From Haloquadratum walsbyi J07HQW2 (GTDB taxonomy: Archaea; Halobacteriota; Halobacteria; Halobacteriales; Haloferacaceae), in NCBI RefSeq assembly GCF_000415985.1, contig NZ_KE356561.1:1547487-1611486 (forward strand): DNA of 64,000 nucleotides, written 5' to 3'. The position numbers and the translations under genes were made by a program. Shown here one piece after another: positions 6,736-40,201 of the stretch. The notes beneath the pieces are model-generated. The model saw only the letters and a list, made by a program, of their open reading frames with translations. It searched no databases and had not been told where the DNA came from. Numbering within the stretch: position 1 is the first letter of the stretch; each line of letters begins with the position of its first letter.

Positions 6736-7914
6736 ATGCGAGGTATCCGAATCGGCAGCGCGTTCGGCATTCCAATCAAACTTGATATCACATTTTTACT
6801 TATTCTTCCGTTGTTTGCCTGGCTCATCGGTAACGATATTGCACAGCTTACTGGTATTGTGAATGATGTTTTCGGGTCGACGATTAGTGCTGACCCACTC
6901 ACCACCGGCTTGACACAGTGGATTCTTGGCACTGCAACAGCTATCGGATTGTTTATTTGTGTGCTTTTACACGAATTTGGTCACTCGCTGGTTGCGATGT
7001 ATTATGGATATACGATTGATTCAATCACATTGTGGCTTTTCGGGGGAGTAGCAAGCTTCACCGAGATGCCTGAGCGTTGGCAGCAGTCGCTTATTATTGC
7101 CATTGCAGGGCCGATTGTGAGTGTCGGGGTTGGAATCATCTCATATATTGGGTTTATTATATTACCACTGACAGCATCACTCGAGCCAGCAAAGTTTGTG
7201 ATTGGGTACCTCGCGCTAACAAATGTAATGCTGGCTGTGTTCAATATGCTACCTGGGTTCCCTCTTGACGGTGGCCGTGTGCTCAGGGCGTTACTAGCGC
7301 GGACTCGATCACATGCACGTGCTACACAAATTGCTGCAGAGGTAGGCAAAGTATTTGCATTTTTACTTGGTATTGTTGGATTGTTTGCAAATTTGTTTCT
7401 CGTTGCACTTGCATTTTTCATATACATTGGTGCGTCCTCAGAGGCACAGCAGACAGTTATGAAAGCTGCCTTCGATGGGGTCACTGTCAGTGATATCATG
7501 ACTGAGCAATCTGATCTTGATATTGTTGACCAGAACGTATCAGTCGCAACGTTGCTTGAGCGGATGTTTACTGAACGGCATACTGGCTATCCTGTCGTTG
7601 ATAATGGTGTTCTTATTGGTGTTGTAACGCTAGACGATGCACGCTCAGTCGATGAAGTCGAGCGCGAAGCATATCGTGTTGATGACGTGATGACGCCTGA
7701 TGTGACGACAATCGATCCGAGTGCAGATGCAATGGATGCGATGCAACGGATGCAAGAAAATGATATTGGTCGGCTGCCGGTTATCGAAGATGACGAGCTC
7801 GTTGGACTCATTTCTCGATCAGATCTCATGACTGCTTTCACTATTATCAAATCGCGAGGGTCAAAGACGGCATTGACCGAGCGTGATTCAACATCATTTC
7901 CAAGTCCACGGTGA
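6736..7914 (+). CDS. Site-2 protease family zinc metalloprotease with two CBS domains
   Basis: 392 residues, M50 family intramembrane protease. The zinc motif HEFGH is at residues 79-83, inside a membrane helix, and the third ligand lies in the conserved NMLPGFPLDGGR at about 170-181. Four to six hydrophobic segments occupy residues 15-240. Two CBS domains fill the cytoplasmic C-terminus (about 250-310 and 315-375: VSDIMTEQSDLDIVDQNVSV and VDDVMTPDVTTIDPSADAMD), and usually bind adenosine nucleotides and gate activity. Members cut membrane-bound regulators within the bilayer; the substrate here is unknown. Start is the ATG at 6736, with RGIRIGSAFGIPI matching the usual N-terminus of the family. 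Divergent from the helicase gene. Confidence 0.92.
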   Translation: MRGIRIGSAFGIPIKLDITFLLILPLFAWLIGNDIAQLTGIVNDVFGSTISADPLTTGLTQWILGTATAIGLFICVLLHEFGHSLVAMYYGYTIDSITLWLFGGVASFTEMPERWQQSLIIAIAGPIVSVGVGIISYIGFIILPLTASLEPAKFVIGYLALTNVMLAVFNMLPGFPLDGGRVLRALLARTRSHARATQIAAEVGKVFAFLLGIVGLFANLFLVALAFFIYIGASSEAQQTVMKAAFDGVTVSDIMTEQSDLDIVDQNVSVATLLERMFTERHTGYPVVDNGVLIGVVTLDDARSVDEVEREAYRVDDVMTPDVTTIDPSADAMDAMQRMQENDIGRLPVIEDDELVGLISRSDLMTAFTIIKSRGSKTALTERDSTSFPSPR

Positions 7915-27739: not shown

Positions 27740-29281
27740 CTAATCGGTGCTCATTTGCTCATCATCTGTTTGTGTACTTGTCGTTGATCCATCAGGAAGT
27801 GAAATGAGATTCTCACGACCCAATCGAAGTTTATCCACCCGGTCATCCTCAGCCATCATTGAGAGAACTTGTGATACTTTTGCATCTGACCATCCCGTCT
27901 TATCGACAATCGATGCCTGTCGCATCCGTCCCCCGTTACGTGAGAGTAGCTGTTCAACACGTTCTTCATCGGAGAGTAATGCTGGGTCGGTCGAAATATC
28001 TGGCATCGAATCGCTCTTTGATTGCGGGTCCATCTCTGAGGTTGATTCTGTTGTCGTCGATGAATCAGCAGTGTCAACATCTGTTGTAGCATTCATCTCA
28101 GAAGGGGTATCAGATGATAATGGCTCTGTCTCAGCTGATTCCACACCGTCTACAGAAGGTGGACTATCACTTGAATCCGAAACCGATGTCGATGTTGGTT
28201 CTGATGTTGGTGATGCTGAATCACCAGAAACACCTGATGAGGAAGCGGTATCCGCATGCCTTGGCATCGATGGATTATTTTCAGAAGAATCGAAGTTGTC
28301 CTCGCCCTCAACATCGCCAGTAGCTGTCGGAGGAAGTCCAGATCCTGGTGATGACGAATTATTATCTTCCGTTCCGTCAGGGTCTCCATTGTCGGTCCGA
28401 TATCGACGACTACCATAGAGAATTCCAATTATTCCAAGGAATCCAAGAATTGCTCCAGCGATTAATGCTGTTGGAATAGAGTTTTCTTCAACCGCAGAAT
28501 ATCGTATTTCAAGTCCTGAATTTCCCGCAAAGTCAGATGGTTGTGTAAGGACGACTGCACTCTCTCGTTGTTGAACTGGAATACTTGTTCGAGAAACGGT
28601 ATATCGATTTGGTGGATGGATGATAATTTGTTGATTCACACCGACAATTGACATCCATGTACGCTGGACATCTGCCTCATCGGTCGCAATTTTAAATACA
28701 TCACCAATCAATAGTGTTTCATTCTGCCCTTGCTGAGCAAAATTCGACCAGCGAAACGAGAGAGCAAGCGTGCCGCGATTATCGCTAACGTTCGCATGAT
28801 AGCTTACATTGCGGATTTGCATTCGCCGGTCAGTTGATGCGGTCGCTTCCGTCTGAAGTGTCCTGAACAGTGTAATTTGTGGTCCAATGTTGATATTGTT
28901 TCGCTCATACTGACGTGCGATTTCTTCGAATGCACGTGTCTCGTTTGGATTAGTGAGTGCATATTGGGTTTCAATCCGCCAGAAAGCACTCTGATCAGCG
29001 TGAACAGAAATAGTGATTGTCGTTTGAGATTCTGACTGTGGTGTCGTATTTGTCGTATCAATCTGTGCTGGCGATGACGTTGTGTCAATATTTGATAGCT
29101 CAGTTGTATCAGACACAAATGACGCTGAAGATGAGACTGATGTCGTCGCTGGCTGAGTGGGTACCGGATGAGTGACACCAGCACCAGCACTCGTACCTGC
29201 AGCTACACCTGCAACGGGAGCAACAGCGAGGAGGAGGACAACTAATAGCGCGGACATCCGCATGTGATGCCGATTGTACAT
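27740..29281 (-). CDS. Membrane-anchored protein with secreted domain and cytoplasmic winged helix
   Basis: 513 residues. Order: signal peptide (about 9-28: SALLVVLLLAVAPVAGVAAG); Ser/Thr-rich stretch; an extracellular beta-rich domain (about 80-275: TTITISVHADQSAFWRIETQ and following); one membrane helix (about 285-307: TALIAGAILGFLGIIGILYG); a basic stop-transfer (SRRYR); a 130-residue Ser/Asp/Glu-rich linker; and a C-terminal winged helix (about 440-495: ERVEQLLSRNGGRMRQASIV, then DKTGWSDAKVSQVLSMMAED). This is the layout of a transmembrane regulator that senses outside and binds DNA inside. The ATG at 29281 is chosen because the longer frame from 29506 runs across the promoter and into the divergent gene. 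The ligand and target are unknown. Confidence 0.85.
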   Translation of the reverse strand: MYNRHHMRMSALLVVLLLAVAPVAGVAAGTSAGAGVTHPVPTQPATTSVSSSASFVSDTTELSNIDTTSSPAQIDTTNTTPQSESQTTITISVHADQSAFWRIETQYALTNPNETRAFEEIARQYERNNINIGPQITLFRTLQTEATASTDRRMQIRNVSYHANVSDNRGTLALSFRWSNFAQQGQNETLLIGDVFKIATDEADVQRTWMSIVGVNQQIIIHPPNRYTVSRTSIPVQQRESAVVLTQPSDFAGNSGLEIRYSAVEENSIPTALIAGAILGFLGIIGILYGSRRYRTDNGDPDGTEDNNSSSPGSGLPPTATGDVEGEDNFDSSENNPSMPRHADTASSSGVSGDSASPTSEPTSTSVSDSSDSPPSVDGVESAETEPLSSDTPSEMNATTDVDTADSSTTTESTSEMDPQSKSDSMPDISTDPALLSDEERVEQLLSRNGGRMRQASIVDKTGWSDAKVSQVLSMMAEDDRVDKLRLGRENLISLPDGSTTSTQTDDEQMSTD

Positions 29282-29387
29282 GGAACGCTCAAAACCCTTT
29301 CTATCGGTATTTTCGAATATTAAGAGGTAAGTATGGGATAAAACGGTAATGATAGTGTTTTTATTATCACCTGATATAATCGAATAT
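29282..29387. promoter_or_regulatory. Shared divergent promoter region
   Basis: 106 bp between the winged-helix membrane protein (minus) and the secreted coiled-coil protein (plus). GTTTTTATTATC at 29355-29366 is a TATA-like element about 28-31 bp before the plus-strand ATG at 29388. On the minus strand CTTAATATT at about 29310-29318 stands about 30 bp before the ATG at 29281. Both genes can be controlled from one site, possibly by the encoded winged helix. Confidence 0.45.
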
Positions 29388-30716
29388 ATGCGTGCCGTCT
29401 CTGTCTTTCTTGCCATCATCCTTGTTACTGCGACTGTCGCCGGGGCTGTTCCAGTGGCATCTATCGGTGACGCACAAACAAGTGGCAAGAGTATCTCGCA
29501 AATCAATCAGGAAGGAAGTGGACCAATCCTATCAACACTTGGTATTTCACCAGTCGAAGTGCAACGATCTGCATTGCAAACGACATATGTTGAACTCGGT
29601 CGTGGACTTGAGTTCGCTTCAATAGCGACTGAAACGAGAATTCAAACGGAGACAACATTAAATCGAATTCAGTCAGCGTCAACACCATCTGTGCGTCAAC
29701 AACGATTATTACAGGCACTTAGCGAAACTGAGCAGCGAATAGTGATACTTCGTTCGCAACAACGAACTCAGATATCGGCATATGGAGATGAAAATGTCAC
29801 CACCGAAGAGTTTCTTGCTCGTCTTGCTGCAATTGATACTGAATCACGTGCACTGATTGCACGATTATCACGACTGGAGTCAGCCGCGAACTCAATAGAT
29901 GGATTCAGTATTCCTGCGTCGCGATTCGAGACACTCCGTATTGAGTTACGGACACTCACAAGTCCGGTTCGTAAACATGCTACAGAGGTCATCACAGGAA
30001 CAACTGAGCGAAGTCGATTTGTCATTCAGTCAGGACCGCAAAGTGTTGTAGTTGGTACTCTCATTAATGATGCATACGTGCGAGAAGCATATCGGGGGCG
30101 ACTCAGAGGGACCAACGTTGGAACCGAGCTGAATATAACAACTCCAACAAATGTGACCACTGAGGCTTATCCGACGATTACGTCATTACGTCGGGAAAGA
30201 GCAGTTACAGCACCAGAGGGTCCGATTACTCGTGTGAGGATCAATCATGACCGTGGTCGTCTCGTGAGTTTCATACATACCAGTAATACACGGATATTTA
30301 AAGAAATTCAGCATCGACCACTTGCACAGACGTCGACGCGACGATCACTTTCAGCGGTAAAGGACGGACTTCGGCTCACTGCACATCCGACATATCCTGG
30401 TGGACCGGTTCGATTCCAACTAAACAGCACTGCTACAGAGCAACCAGTCGATGCACCATTGACTCTCGGTCCACCGAGTGGTGAAAGTACGATTGTTGGA
30501 GAAACAGGGTCTGATGGGTCGCTGTGGACACTCGCACCTGATGGAACATATCAAGTGACTGCTATCGATAGGAATTCTGTTGTATTGGTCTCTATTGACC
30601 CATCATTCCCACCGTTAATATACGGCGCTGTCGGAAACAGCACCCGTGAGAATAGCACTGAAACAGGCGTTAATGATGCTGGTAGCAATGTTCGAGTATC
30701 AGGTGGAGACAGCTAG
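29388..30716 (+). CDS. Secreted protein with coiled-coil N-domain, function unknown
   Basis: 442 residues. A signal peptide (RAVSVFLAIILVTATVAGAV) is at the start when translation begins at 29388; the longer frame from 29349 would hide it. Residues about 50-195 are a helical coiled coil rich in Gln/Glu/Arg (TETRIQTETTLNRIQSASTP; LLQALSETEQRIVILRSQQR). A beta-rich domain follows (about 210-410) with FQLNSTATEQPVDAPLTLGP and a Gly/Thr-rich segment typical of surface proteins, and an Asn/Ser-rich tail. No clear membrane helix closes it. It is paired head-to-head with the membrane-anchored winged-helix protein, which suggests a linked role at the cell surface. Confidence 0.75.
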   Translation: MRAVSVFLAIILVTATVAGAVPVASIGDAQTSGKSISQINQEGSGPILSTLGISPVEVQRSALQTTYVELGRGLEFASIATETRIQTETTLNRIQSASTPSVRQQRLLQALSETEQRIVILRSQQRTQISAYGDENVTTEEFLARLAAIDTESRALIARLSRLESAANSIDGFSIPASRFETLRIELRTLTSPVRKHATEVITGTTERSRFVIQSGPQSVVVGTLINDAYVREAYRGRLRGTNVGTELNITTPTNVTTEAYPTITSLRRERAVTAPEGPITRVRINHDRGRLVSFIHTSNTRIFKEIQHRPLAQTSTRRSLSAVKDGLRLTAHPTYPGGPVRFQLNSTATEQPVDAPLTLGPPSGESTIVGETGSDGSLWTLAPDGTYQVTAIDRNSVVLVSIDPSFPPLIYGAVGNSTRENSTETGVNDAGSNVRVSGGDS

Positions 30717-31454
30717 GCTGTCGACAGATTCGTTTGTAGATACGGTATAGAGTATTGGATTATAAAGTACCTCGGGGCAAGCCCTCTAAGCCGAGGCTTC
30801 CCTGTGTCGACCGCACTACCCCAGCAAGGGAATTTCACTCAATTCCTCCCGACCTCTTCCTTTCCCGTGAGGAATCGGCTGGAAGTCACACCCGAAAACA
30901 CCGCACTGCACCGCAGCGTCCGTGAGTGGCAGTGGGAGTCGGTCACTGTCACTCCAGCATCACCATGACCCTGACCCGGTGAAACCCCGACTCCCCCCGA
31001 GGCACTCGCCTTGTTTATCTGTAGATTACGCAACTCTCGCCTCTTAGTTCTTGATTATGTTGCGCTCACTGTTGACTTTGATATTACTTACTGAAATCAA
31101 CAAGCGAGTCCATACCGCTCATCTTGACCGTCACATTGTGCAAGCGCACAGTCATTGACAATCTACAGGCAGATAGATCGAATACCTCCGGGATTTGACT
31201 CCGGGGCGATTCACATAATCAAGCTGTTATACAAAAAGGAAGTACCCAAGAGTGATCAAGAATCTTAGTGATTGCACACATATGCCTTCTTATGTCGTAA
31301 TCTGCATGAGTATCTCATCTGTATGTCAAATGCTAAATATTTCATCTGCAATCTGTTGTGATTGCTTGGTCACGGTGATTCAAAATATGTATTCTGATGA
31401 ACAGAGGCAAAGCTTCATGAGCAACATAGACATCAGAAACGTCGTAAGTATTTC
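30717..31454. other. Long intergenic region around the GC-rich relic
   Basis: Apart from the hairpin-flanked relic at 30768-31206, the rest (31207-31454) is AT-rich and shows no gene. A 68-codon frame at 31252 has no recognisable feature. Together with the pilin pseudogene this gives 1.3 kb without an intact gene. Confidence 0.5.
30768..31206. repeat. GC-rich relic with hairpin-forming ends, possibly an IS1341-type derivative
   Basis: A GC-rich island in AT-rich DNA. Its left end, TACCTCGGGGCAAGCCCTCT at about 30768, continues AAGCCGAGGC and can fold as CCTCGG/CCGAGG. The right end, at about 31183-31206, reads TACCTCCGGGATTTGACTCC followed by GGGG and also pairs with itself. Such hairpins are usual at the ends of haloarchaeal IS200/IS605-group elements. 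No transposase frame survives; a 64-codon minus frame inside has no recognisable motif. It may be a small non-autonomous element. The exact borders are uncertain. Confidence 0.4.
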
Positions 31455-38443: not shown

Positions 38444-40201
38444 ATGAGCCAGACAGAACAAGCAGTCCGTGAGGATGGCGTTATCAGAAGTGTAAGTGGT
38501 CCTGTCGTGACCGCGCGTGGACTTGATGCCCGAATGAATGATGTTGTCTATGTAGGTGACGAGGGGCTGATGGGTGAAGTCATCGAGATTGAAGATAACG
38601 TCACGACAGTGCAAGTGTATGAAGAGACATCAGGAATTGGTCCTGATGAACCGGTCAGAAACACAGGCGAGCCGCTCAGTGTTGATCTTGGTCCGGGATT
38701 ACTTGATACGATTTATGATGGCGTTCAGCGTCCACTCGATATTCTTGAAGACAAGATGGGAAGTCCATATCTTGATCGAGGTGTTGATGCGCCAGGAATT
38801 GAGCTAAATAAAAAATGGGAATTTGAGCCAACTGTCACTGAGGGTGATGTTGTTGAATCCGGTGATGAAGTTGGTGTCGTCGAAGAGACAGTAACAATTG
38901 ATCATAAGGTACTCGTCCCACCGAATTATGAGGGTGGTGAGGTAACCGCTGTCAACTCTGGTGAATTCACAGTTGAGGAGACTGTTGTCGAGCTTTCAAG
39001 TGATGAATCAGTCCAGATGCGACAGGAGTGGCCAGTTCGAGAACCTCGACCAGCTGTCGAGAAGAAAACCCCGCGTGAGCCACTCATTTCTGGACAACGA
39101 ATTCTTGATGGACTCTTCCCAATCGCAAAGGGCGGAACAGCAGCGATTCCAGGACCGTTTGGGTCTGGAAAGACAGTCACACAACATCAATTGGCGAAAT
39201 ACGCTGATGCAGACATCATTATTTATGTTGGATGTGGAGAGCGCGGGAATGAGATGACAGAGGTCATCGATGACTTCCCCGAGCTTGAAGATCCATCGAC
39301 CGGAAACCCGCTCATGGCACGAACATCGCTCATTGCCAACACATCGAATATGCCGGTCGCTGCGCGTGAATCCTGTGTGTATACAGGAATCACCATTGCA
39401 GAATTCTACCGTGACATGGGATATGATGTTGCATTGATGGCTGATTCTACATCACGATGGGCTGAGGCAATGCGTGAGATTTCCTCACGACTTGAAGAAA
39501 TGCCCGGTGAAGAAGGATATCCTGCGTATCTTGCAGCACGATTAGCGCAGTTTTATGAACGAGCGGGCTACTTCGAGAATGTCAATGGGACCGAAGGATC
39601 AGTCTCGGCAATCGGTGCTGTGTCCCCGCCAGGGGGAGATTTCTCAGAGCCAGTCACTCAAAATACGCTTCGAATTGTGAAGACATTCTGGGCACTGGAT
39701 GCTGATCTTGCTGAACGTCGGCATTTCCCATCGATTAATTGGGATGAGTCATACTCGCTGTATAAAGAGCAACTGGACCCATGGTTCCAAGAGAACGTCG
39801 AAGATGACTGGCCGGAAGAGCGGCAGTGGGCTGTTGACGTACTTGATGAGGAAAGTGAACTACAAGAAATTGTTCAACTTGTCGGAAAGGACGCATTACC
39901 GGACGATCAACAGCTTACACTTGAGGTCGCACGATATCTGCGTGAGTCATATCTTCAACAGAACGCTTTCCATCCGGTTGATACATACTGTTCCCCAGAA
40001 AAAACGTATCTTACCGTGACAGCGATTCATCGATTCAATGATGAAGCGTTTGAGGCACTTGATGCTGGAGTGCCAGTCGATGAGATTGTCAACATCGATG
40101 CGACACCACGTCTGAACCGGATTGGTGTACAAGAAGATTACGAGGAGTATATCGCGACACTCAAAGAAGACATCGCCACACAACTACAGGAGCTTTACTG
40201 A
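38444..40201 (+). CDS. atpA: A-type ATP synthase catalytic subunit A
   Basis: 585 residues. A beta-barrel N-domain ([20 protein letters not shown]) is followed by the bulge or non-homologous domain typical of A/V-type A subunits (about 120-190). The catalytic domain has the P-loop GPFGSGKT near residue 235, Walker [21 protein letters not shown], and the segment [20 protein letters not shown]. It hydrolyses or makes ATP at the A-B interface. No intein is inserted at the P-loop, although A-subunit genes of some archaea have one there. The stop is one base before the atpB start. Confidence 0.96.

Follow-up and report, generated by a model that had tools for sequence, protein, structure and literature searches.

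The window, a 64,000-nt stretch of Haloquadratum walsbyi J07HQW2 DNA, contains a divergent gene pair that encodes a transmembrane winged-helix regulator and a secreted partner, and the same divergent arrangement recurs in 132 of the 146 genomes that were sampled across the order. We propose, with a probability of roughly 55%, that the regulator is a one-component transmembrane transcription regulator acting on the divergent promoter from which it is itself expressed, and that the dedicated secreted partner tunes it. An earlier reading made from the sequence only had suggested a signalling unit of this type. It is partly supported here, by the linkage of the two genes, the predicted membrane topology, and private conserved elements in the shared control region. 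The features are listed in Table 1.

Table 1. Features of the divergent pair, its control region, and a candidate protease in the window
Feature	Coordinates	Strand	Details and evidence
Transmembrane winged-helix regulator	27740..29263	(-)	507 aa; conserved start 29263
Signal peptide or N-terminal signal anchor, regulator	29180..29263	(-)	Sequence; relatives likewise hydrophobic at N-terminus
DUF7345 ectodomain (PF24036), residues 84-221	28601..29014	(-)	79/79 relatives; pLDDT >90 over most of the domain (model)
Membrane helix, residues ~265-290	28394..28471	(-)	Structure model, hydrophobic-segment and K/R counts
Ser/Thr/Asp-rich disordered linker	27980..28393	(-)	Low pLDDT, low complexity
DUF7343 winged helix (PF24034), residues 429-490	27794..27979	(-)	Pfam; 15/18 invariant alignment columns
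Shared divergent control region	29264..29387	.	124 bp
Element 1, GATAGAAAGGGTTTT	29291..29305	(-)	Near-invariant in relatives; regulator core-promoter position
Possible single AAAACGT-type half of element 2	29340..29351	(+)	Sequence
TATA-like box, partner gene	29358..29366	(+)	About 22-30 nt upstream of partner ATG
Secreted partner	29388..30716	(+)	442 aa; signal sequence
DUF7096 helical bundle (PF23379)	29391..30008	(+)	Pfam, structure model
DUF7094 beta domain (PF23375)	30018..30332	(+)	Pfam, structure model
Fn3_arc domain (PF23374)	30351..30587	(+)	Pfam, structure model
S2P-like M50 peptidase with CBS domains	6736-7914		Elsewhere in the window

Domain organization and predicted topology

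Both genes and all of the parts named in the sequence-only reading are present, as judged from Pfam, sequence, and structure models. The regulator consists, in order, of a signal peptide, a DUF7345 ectodomain, a single membrane helix, a disordered linker, and a C-terminal DUF7343 winged helix. The Pfam matches lie above the curated cut-offs for DUF7345 (E 2e-37, 128.6 bits versus 27.5) and for DUF7343 (E 1.5e-29, 102 bits versus 27.6), and Pfam detected the winged helix in 79 of 79 regulator relatives. In an alignment of these 79 regulators, out of 90 listed, 15 of the 18 invariant columns fell within the winged helix and the remainder of the protein was diverse, as would be expected if the DNA target is fixed and the exterior is variable. 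Structure comparison aligned the winged helix with MarR/ArsR-type domains (Z about 10 to 11), a likeness at the level of the fold only; MarR_2 matched 9 and HTH_IclR 43 of the 79 relatives, with E values up to 0.01. COG2512, which we take to comprise membrane-associated winged-helix proteins, is a candidate grouping. Neither a histidine kinase or receiver domain nor HAMP was among the Pfam matches of the regulator and its relatives. Structure searches with DUF7345 gave weak matches only, to the FMO protein (Z 9.6, rmsd 6.3 over 144 residues) and to LppM (Foldseek); they yielded no convincing known relative, and no function was drawn from them. There was no NCBIfam match above cut-off for the regulator or the partner, and PDB sequence searches with the two proteins returned nothing convincing.

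The regulator start was placed at 29263 (MRMSALL...), which is the second ATG, because homologues start there (they begin MRxSxALL...) and because the conserved element 1 described below is constantly spaced from that position. A start at 29281 would add six residues.

The partner had been described as a secreted coiled-coil protein. Secretion agrees with the prediction, but the plain coiled coil does not hold: in the structure model (pLDDT 88.6), two beta domains come after a long helical bundle. Its three Pfam matches are at 86 (DUF7096), 83.2 (DUF7094), and 94.6 (Fn3_arc) bits, against cut-offs of 27, 27, and 28.9. The sequence contains no lipobox and no membrane segment past residue 60, and the latter was also true of the partners at 135 of 138 loci; in the three exceptions (L124, L153, and L172), the start had been picked too far upstream. 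No function was drawn from the partner fold, since the Fn3-like domain has hits to many beta-sandwiches (best Z, 12.6 over 78 residues) and the resemblance of the helical bundle to STAT coiled coils is at a level common among helical bundles.

Of 136 regulators, 132 have a single membrane segment, located between DUF7345 and the winged helix. Lysine and arginine residues were more numerous on the winged-helix side of this segment in 126 of 134 proteins, equal on the two sides in 7, and fewer in 1, with flanking means of 2.19 on the winged-helix side and 0.34 on the other. Together, the segment count and the charge bias predict that DUF7345 is outside the cell and the winged helix is inside, whereas an external winged helix had been named in advance as a finding that would speak against a signalling unit.

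Conservation of the divergent pair

Among the 146 genomes, the regulator query matched 145 and DUF7096 matched 139. The DNA around the best DUF7096 match was examined in 134 genomes (133 fetched loci and the window), with the profiles iterated on these same loci, and the divergent pair was present in 130, including L176 after correction of an over-long frame. Two further genomes bring the total to 132: in G013 the pair is on another contig (L199), and in G030 it is present though Pfam misses DUF7096 (L200). Twelve of the 146 genomes were judged by profile, 7 of them without a Pfam DUF7096 match and 5 with weak unlisted matches. The intergenic gap had a median of 154 bp with quartiles of 132 and 169 bp (132 loci). 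The two genes are therefore linked across haloarchaea, a point on which the signalling-unit reading had been made to depend. The other neighbours in the window were mostly not near the pair (idsA at 42, radical SAM at 17, and DUF373 at 11 of 141 loci, by profile counts), and their functions were dropped as clues because they are not conserved beside it.

Several of the 14 genomes without the divergent pair are incomplete assemblies. The regulator and partner genes are apart in G063 and G129, and both are far apart in G010; in G001 the pair is interrupted by a contig end. A regulator and a DUF7096 homologue lie in tandem in G127, G096, G015, and G028 and converge in G048, and in G011 DUF7096 adjoins a DUF7345-only protein. 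Finally, the profiles found DUF7345 or the winged helix without DUF7096 in four genomes (G009, G025, G037, and G042). Judging from gene content, the partner is not strictly required by the regulator, since G063 and G129 have the two genes at separate places and DUF7096 was not matched in four of the 146 genomes. One family, f9 (G009, G025, G037, and G048), has DUF7345-winged-helix regulators with DUF7096 absent in three of its four genomes and converging in the fourth; in G037, a converging DUF7345-only stretch takes the place of DUF7096. One genome carries a second divergent regulator-partner pair (L203, G002:C45), which is without element 1.

Conserved elements in the shared control region

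The two genes had been said to share a 106-bp promoter region. The region is indeed shared, but from the conserved regulator start it measures 124 bp. Motif counts were made on 127 of the 132 shared regions, the other 5 being omitted because the automatic start gave a gap outside 60-400 bp.

Several trends were apparent. First, element 1, which reads GATRGAAAGNNTTTT on the regulator strand, is near-invariant across the shared regions. Of the 127 regions, 119 scored above 8 bits for it, whereas 20 shuffles averaged 0.05 such regions, with a matrix trained on the same sequences that it scored. The element begins at a distance of 19-24 nt from the start of the regulator (5th-95th percentile). Second, element 1 is nearly private to the regulator promoter. 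Its exact form had 18 matches spread over 17 of 50 whole genomes, compared to 2 for the reversed control, and by coordinates 16 of the 18 were at the regulator promoter and the other 2 were elsewhere in G010. At a threshold of at least 12 bits, the matrix found 129 matches in the 1.21 Mb of fetched loci, of which 122 were assigned to the regulator promoter by script, 4 by inspection (L136, L144, L169, and L172, where the automatic start choice failed), and 3 were elsewhere (L068, L077, and position 39955 of the window). A generic promoter was rejected as a full account of element 1 for this reason. Third, where the pair is split, element 1 is found with the regulator (L197 and L198; 31.7 and 27.2 bits) and not with the partner (L082 and L192; -9.6 and -2.9 bits). 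The element is absent from some loci, for instance L116, L127, L156, L190, L194, L196, and L199, and it was not found in 13 paralogue loci (best score, 6.0 bits).

A one-mismatch search of the window's own genome gave 8 matches compared to 6 for the reversed control, which is chance level, and no regulon was derived from it; the only exact match of the 8 was at the regulator promoter. A second element-1-like match (16 bits) occurs just beyond the 3' end of the regulator in L068 (near 2705) and L077 (near 6077). Another, at 39955-39975 of the window (17.4 bits), lies within the coding sequence of A-type ATP synthase subunit A and is probably due to chance.

Element 2 consists of two AAAACGT/AAAnGTCTC-like boxes with a spacing of about 21 bp. 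It scored above 8 bits in 62 of 127 shared regions and in none of the shuffles, and its degenerate pattern had 9 matches in 50 genomes, all 9 at the pair locus, with 0 for the control. The full paired form had no match in the window's own genome, where a possible single half is present, and by eye it was at neither gene in G063, in which the genes are apart. On the partner side, 103 of the 127 regions gave a score above 8 bits with a TATA-like matrix, compared to 4.1 in shuffles. The distances of the promoter elements from the two starts suggest that both transcripts may be leaderless.

Recurrence of the link in paralogues

At 9 of 13 loci of haloarchaeal regulator paralogues (hand-chosen, one per genome), a DUF7096 homologue adjoins the paralogue in tandem on the same strand. 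These homologues have the DUF7096 part only, without DUF7094 and Fn3. Across 20 genomes of the phylum search in which DUF7096 matched, there were 37 such matches; 32 of them had a DUF7345 match no more than 3 kb away, and the five that did not are weak (E above 1e-6). The recognition-helix region reads WSnAKVSQLLS in orthologues versus Wt.AKTSqVv in paralogues. Outside the order, DUF7345 matches occurred in 13 of 120 sampled genomes, and the six methanogen-type loci there (one per genome examined) have DUF7345 and the winged helix with no DUF7096. At G172:C4:11-1931, also outside the order, a DUF7345 match and a weak DUF7096 one stand side by side, and the pairing may thus predate the order.

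The window's own genome also encodes a DUF7345 protein of 282 aa with one membrane segment and no winged helix (L260:3540-4385; C1 near 3476674). L247 and G096 have comparable receptor-only proteins, located after DUF7096.

The distances of the ectodomain and of DUF7096 were correlated across the 41 loci holding idsA (r 0.46; partial r 0.36 after removal of the IdsA distance), and none of 2,000 permutations gave a partial r as high. The C-terminal half of the partner likewise gave a partial r of 0.36 with the ectodomain. These values lend weak support to co-evolution of the ectodomain and the partner.

Proposed mechanism and alternative explanations

In the mechanism that we propose, the regulator would reside in the membrane with DUF7345 outside and the winged helix inside, and the winged helix would bind elements of the shared divergent region. 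Binding to element 1, which lies over the regulator's own core promoter, would for that reason probably lead to negative autoregulation, and in many genera the paired element between the two promoters may set partner expression. The secreted DUF7096 bundle would bind, or compete for, DUF7345 and thereby report the state of the cell surface. The self-regulation step is suggested by the privacy of element 1, its fixed position, and its behaviour in split pairs, and action of the partner back on the ectodomain by a linkage that follows DUF7345 through duplication.

A lesser but real possibility is that the partner, as a surface or S-layer-associated protein, is a regulated output only and not a ligand; DUF7345 would then sense salt, ions, or envelope stress, and the regulator would adjust the output gene. 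Regulators are commonly arranged head to head with their targets, and a conserved control region between both genes fits this possibility, as do the 4 of 146 genomes that have DUF7345 or the winged helix without DUF7096 and the methanogen-type relatives that lack DUF7096. However, DUF7096 follows DUF7345 into paralogous loci with another gene order and without DUF7094 and Fn3, and it occurs beside DUF7345 proteins that have no winged helix (L247, G011, and G096), which pure target regulation explains poorly.

The position of element 1 raises a different objection to a private operator. The element occupies the BRE/TATA place upstream of the regulator start and may in part be a specialized core promoter or a site at which a different regulator binds. 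That it is simply an unusual core promoter or another factor's site, with the pair co-regulated by that factor, is nevertheless unlikely: a generic promoter or a global factor would be expected at many genes, whereas the exact form is at this promoter in 16 of 18 cases (50 genomes) and the 1.21 Mb scanned with the matrix contain hardly any other match.

Regulated intramembrane proteolysis, in which a dormant membrane regulator has its winged helix freed by an M50/S2P or rhomboid protease, is quite unlikely. The S2P protease to which the sequence-only reading had pointed at 6736 is present, being an S2P-like M50 peptidase with CBS domains in the same window, and the long disordered linker between the modelled membrane helix and the winged helix could permit release. 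However, transmembrane regulators are able to act from the membrane, according to the available text of two reports (PMC10269533, PMC6396743). Adjacency without function is very improbable, as it has nothing in its favour beyond general gene-order conservation, whereas neighbours shuffle while the pair stays and the link recurs in paralogues.

To return to the tuned one-component regulator, a broader version of it can be put forward tentatively, in which a self-contained surface-surveillance circuit is near-universal in haloarchaea. DUF7096 would be the ligand or decoy of DUF7345, and the winged helix, while staying at the membrane, would have its own divergent promoter as essentially the one target in the genome. 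The duplicated receptor-ligand modules would form an envelope-sensing family. If so, the tandem DUF7345-DUF7096 operons, in which some receptors have no DNA-binding domain, would represent an archaeal family of this kind.

Relation to known systems

Transmembrane transcription regulators (TTRs) are described as widespread in bacteria and archaea in the portion of PMC10269533 that was available; a word search of that text returned no mention of "Halobacter-". Archaea are said to have membrane-bound regulators commonly, few of which are studied in the papers covered here. TTRs likewise combine a DNA-binding domain and a transmembrane region in one chain, as one-component systems with no kinase. 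The predicted regulator fits this definition, having both regions in the same chain and no kinase or receiver domain. It differs from the TTRs in that text in its combination of signal peptide, ectodomain, helix, and C-terminal winged helix and in its head-to-head secreted partner.

ArnR/ArnR1 of Sulfolobus acidocaldarius is likewise an archaeal membrane-bound one-component regulator. In the available part of PMC6396743, the HTH of ArnR is N-terminal and its two membrane helices are C-terminal, with a putative HAMP and sensor domain as further parts; ArnR controls the archaellum and pili, and no secreted partner is described, in contrast to the pair in the window. Membership in the ArnR family was rejected, given the C-terminal winged helix, single internal membrane helix, and absence of a HAMP match in the regulator. 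ToxR-ToxS and TcpP-TcpH of Vibrio cholerae likewise couple a membrane regulator with a dedicated tuning protein. Going by the descriptions in the accessible text (PMC7496328, PMC11323476), TcpH is a single-pass membrane protein, whereas the partner in the window lacks a membrane segment and its gene is transcribed divergently.

This kind of regulator is thus already known, as TTRs. In the Pfam tables consulted, the entries PF24036, PF24034, PF23379, and PF23375 carry no functional description, and neither the pairing nor the control region is stated. The literature search, which covered open-licence papers and not subscription journals, found no paper on these families, the pair, or the control region, in keeping with the earlier remark that no function had been described for the pair. 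Two candidate papers were set aside on the text available from them: that on CsmR (PMC13286277) concerns hvo_1209, which was not identified as a family member, and a silver-stress study (PMC10694973) contains no identifiable member. The regulator is near-universal in the order, including the genetic model Haloferax volcanii (matches to DUF7096 and DUF7345), and the candidate operator and candidate ligand offer a testable kinase-free route from outside the membrane to an archaeal promoter.

Other features of the window

Rfam matches within the window were limited to two tRNAs. Directly 3' of the partner gene, positions 30750-31000 have a G+C content of 0.588 compared to about 0.48 around them and no assigned feature; this stretch is possibly a mobile-element remnant.
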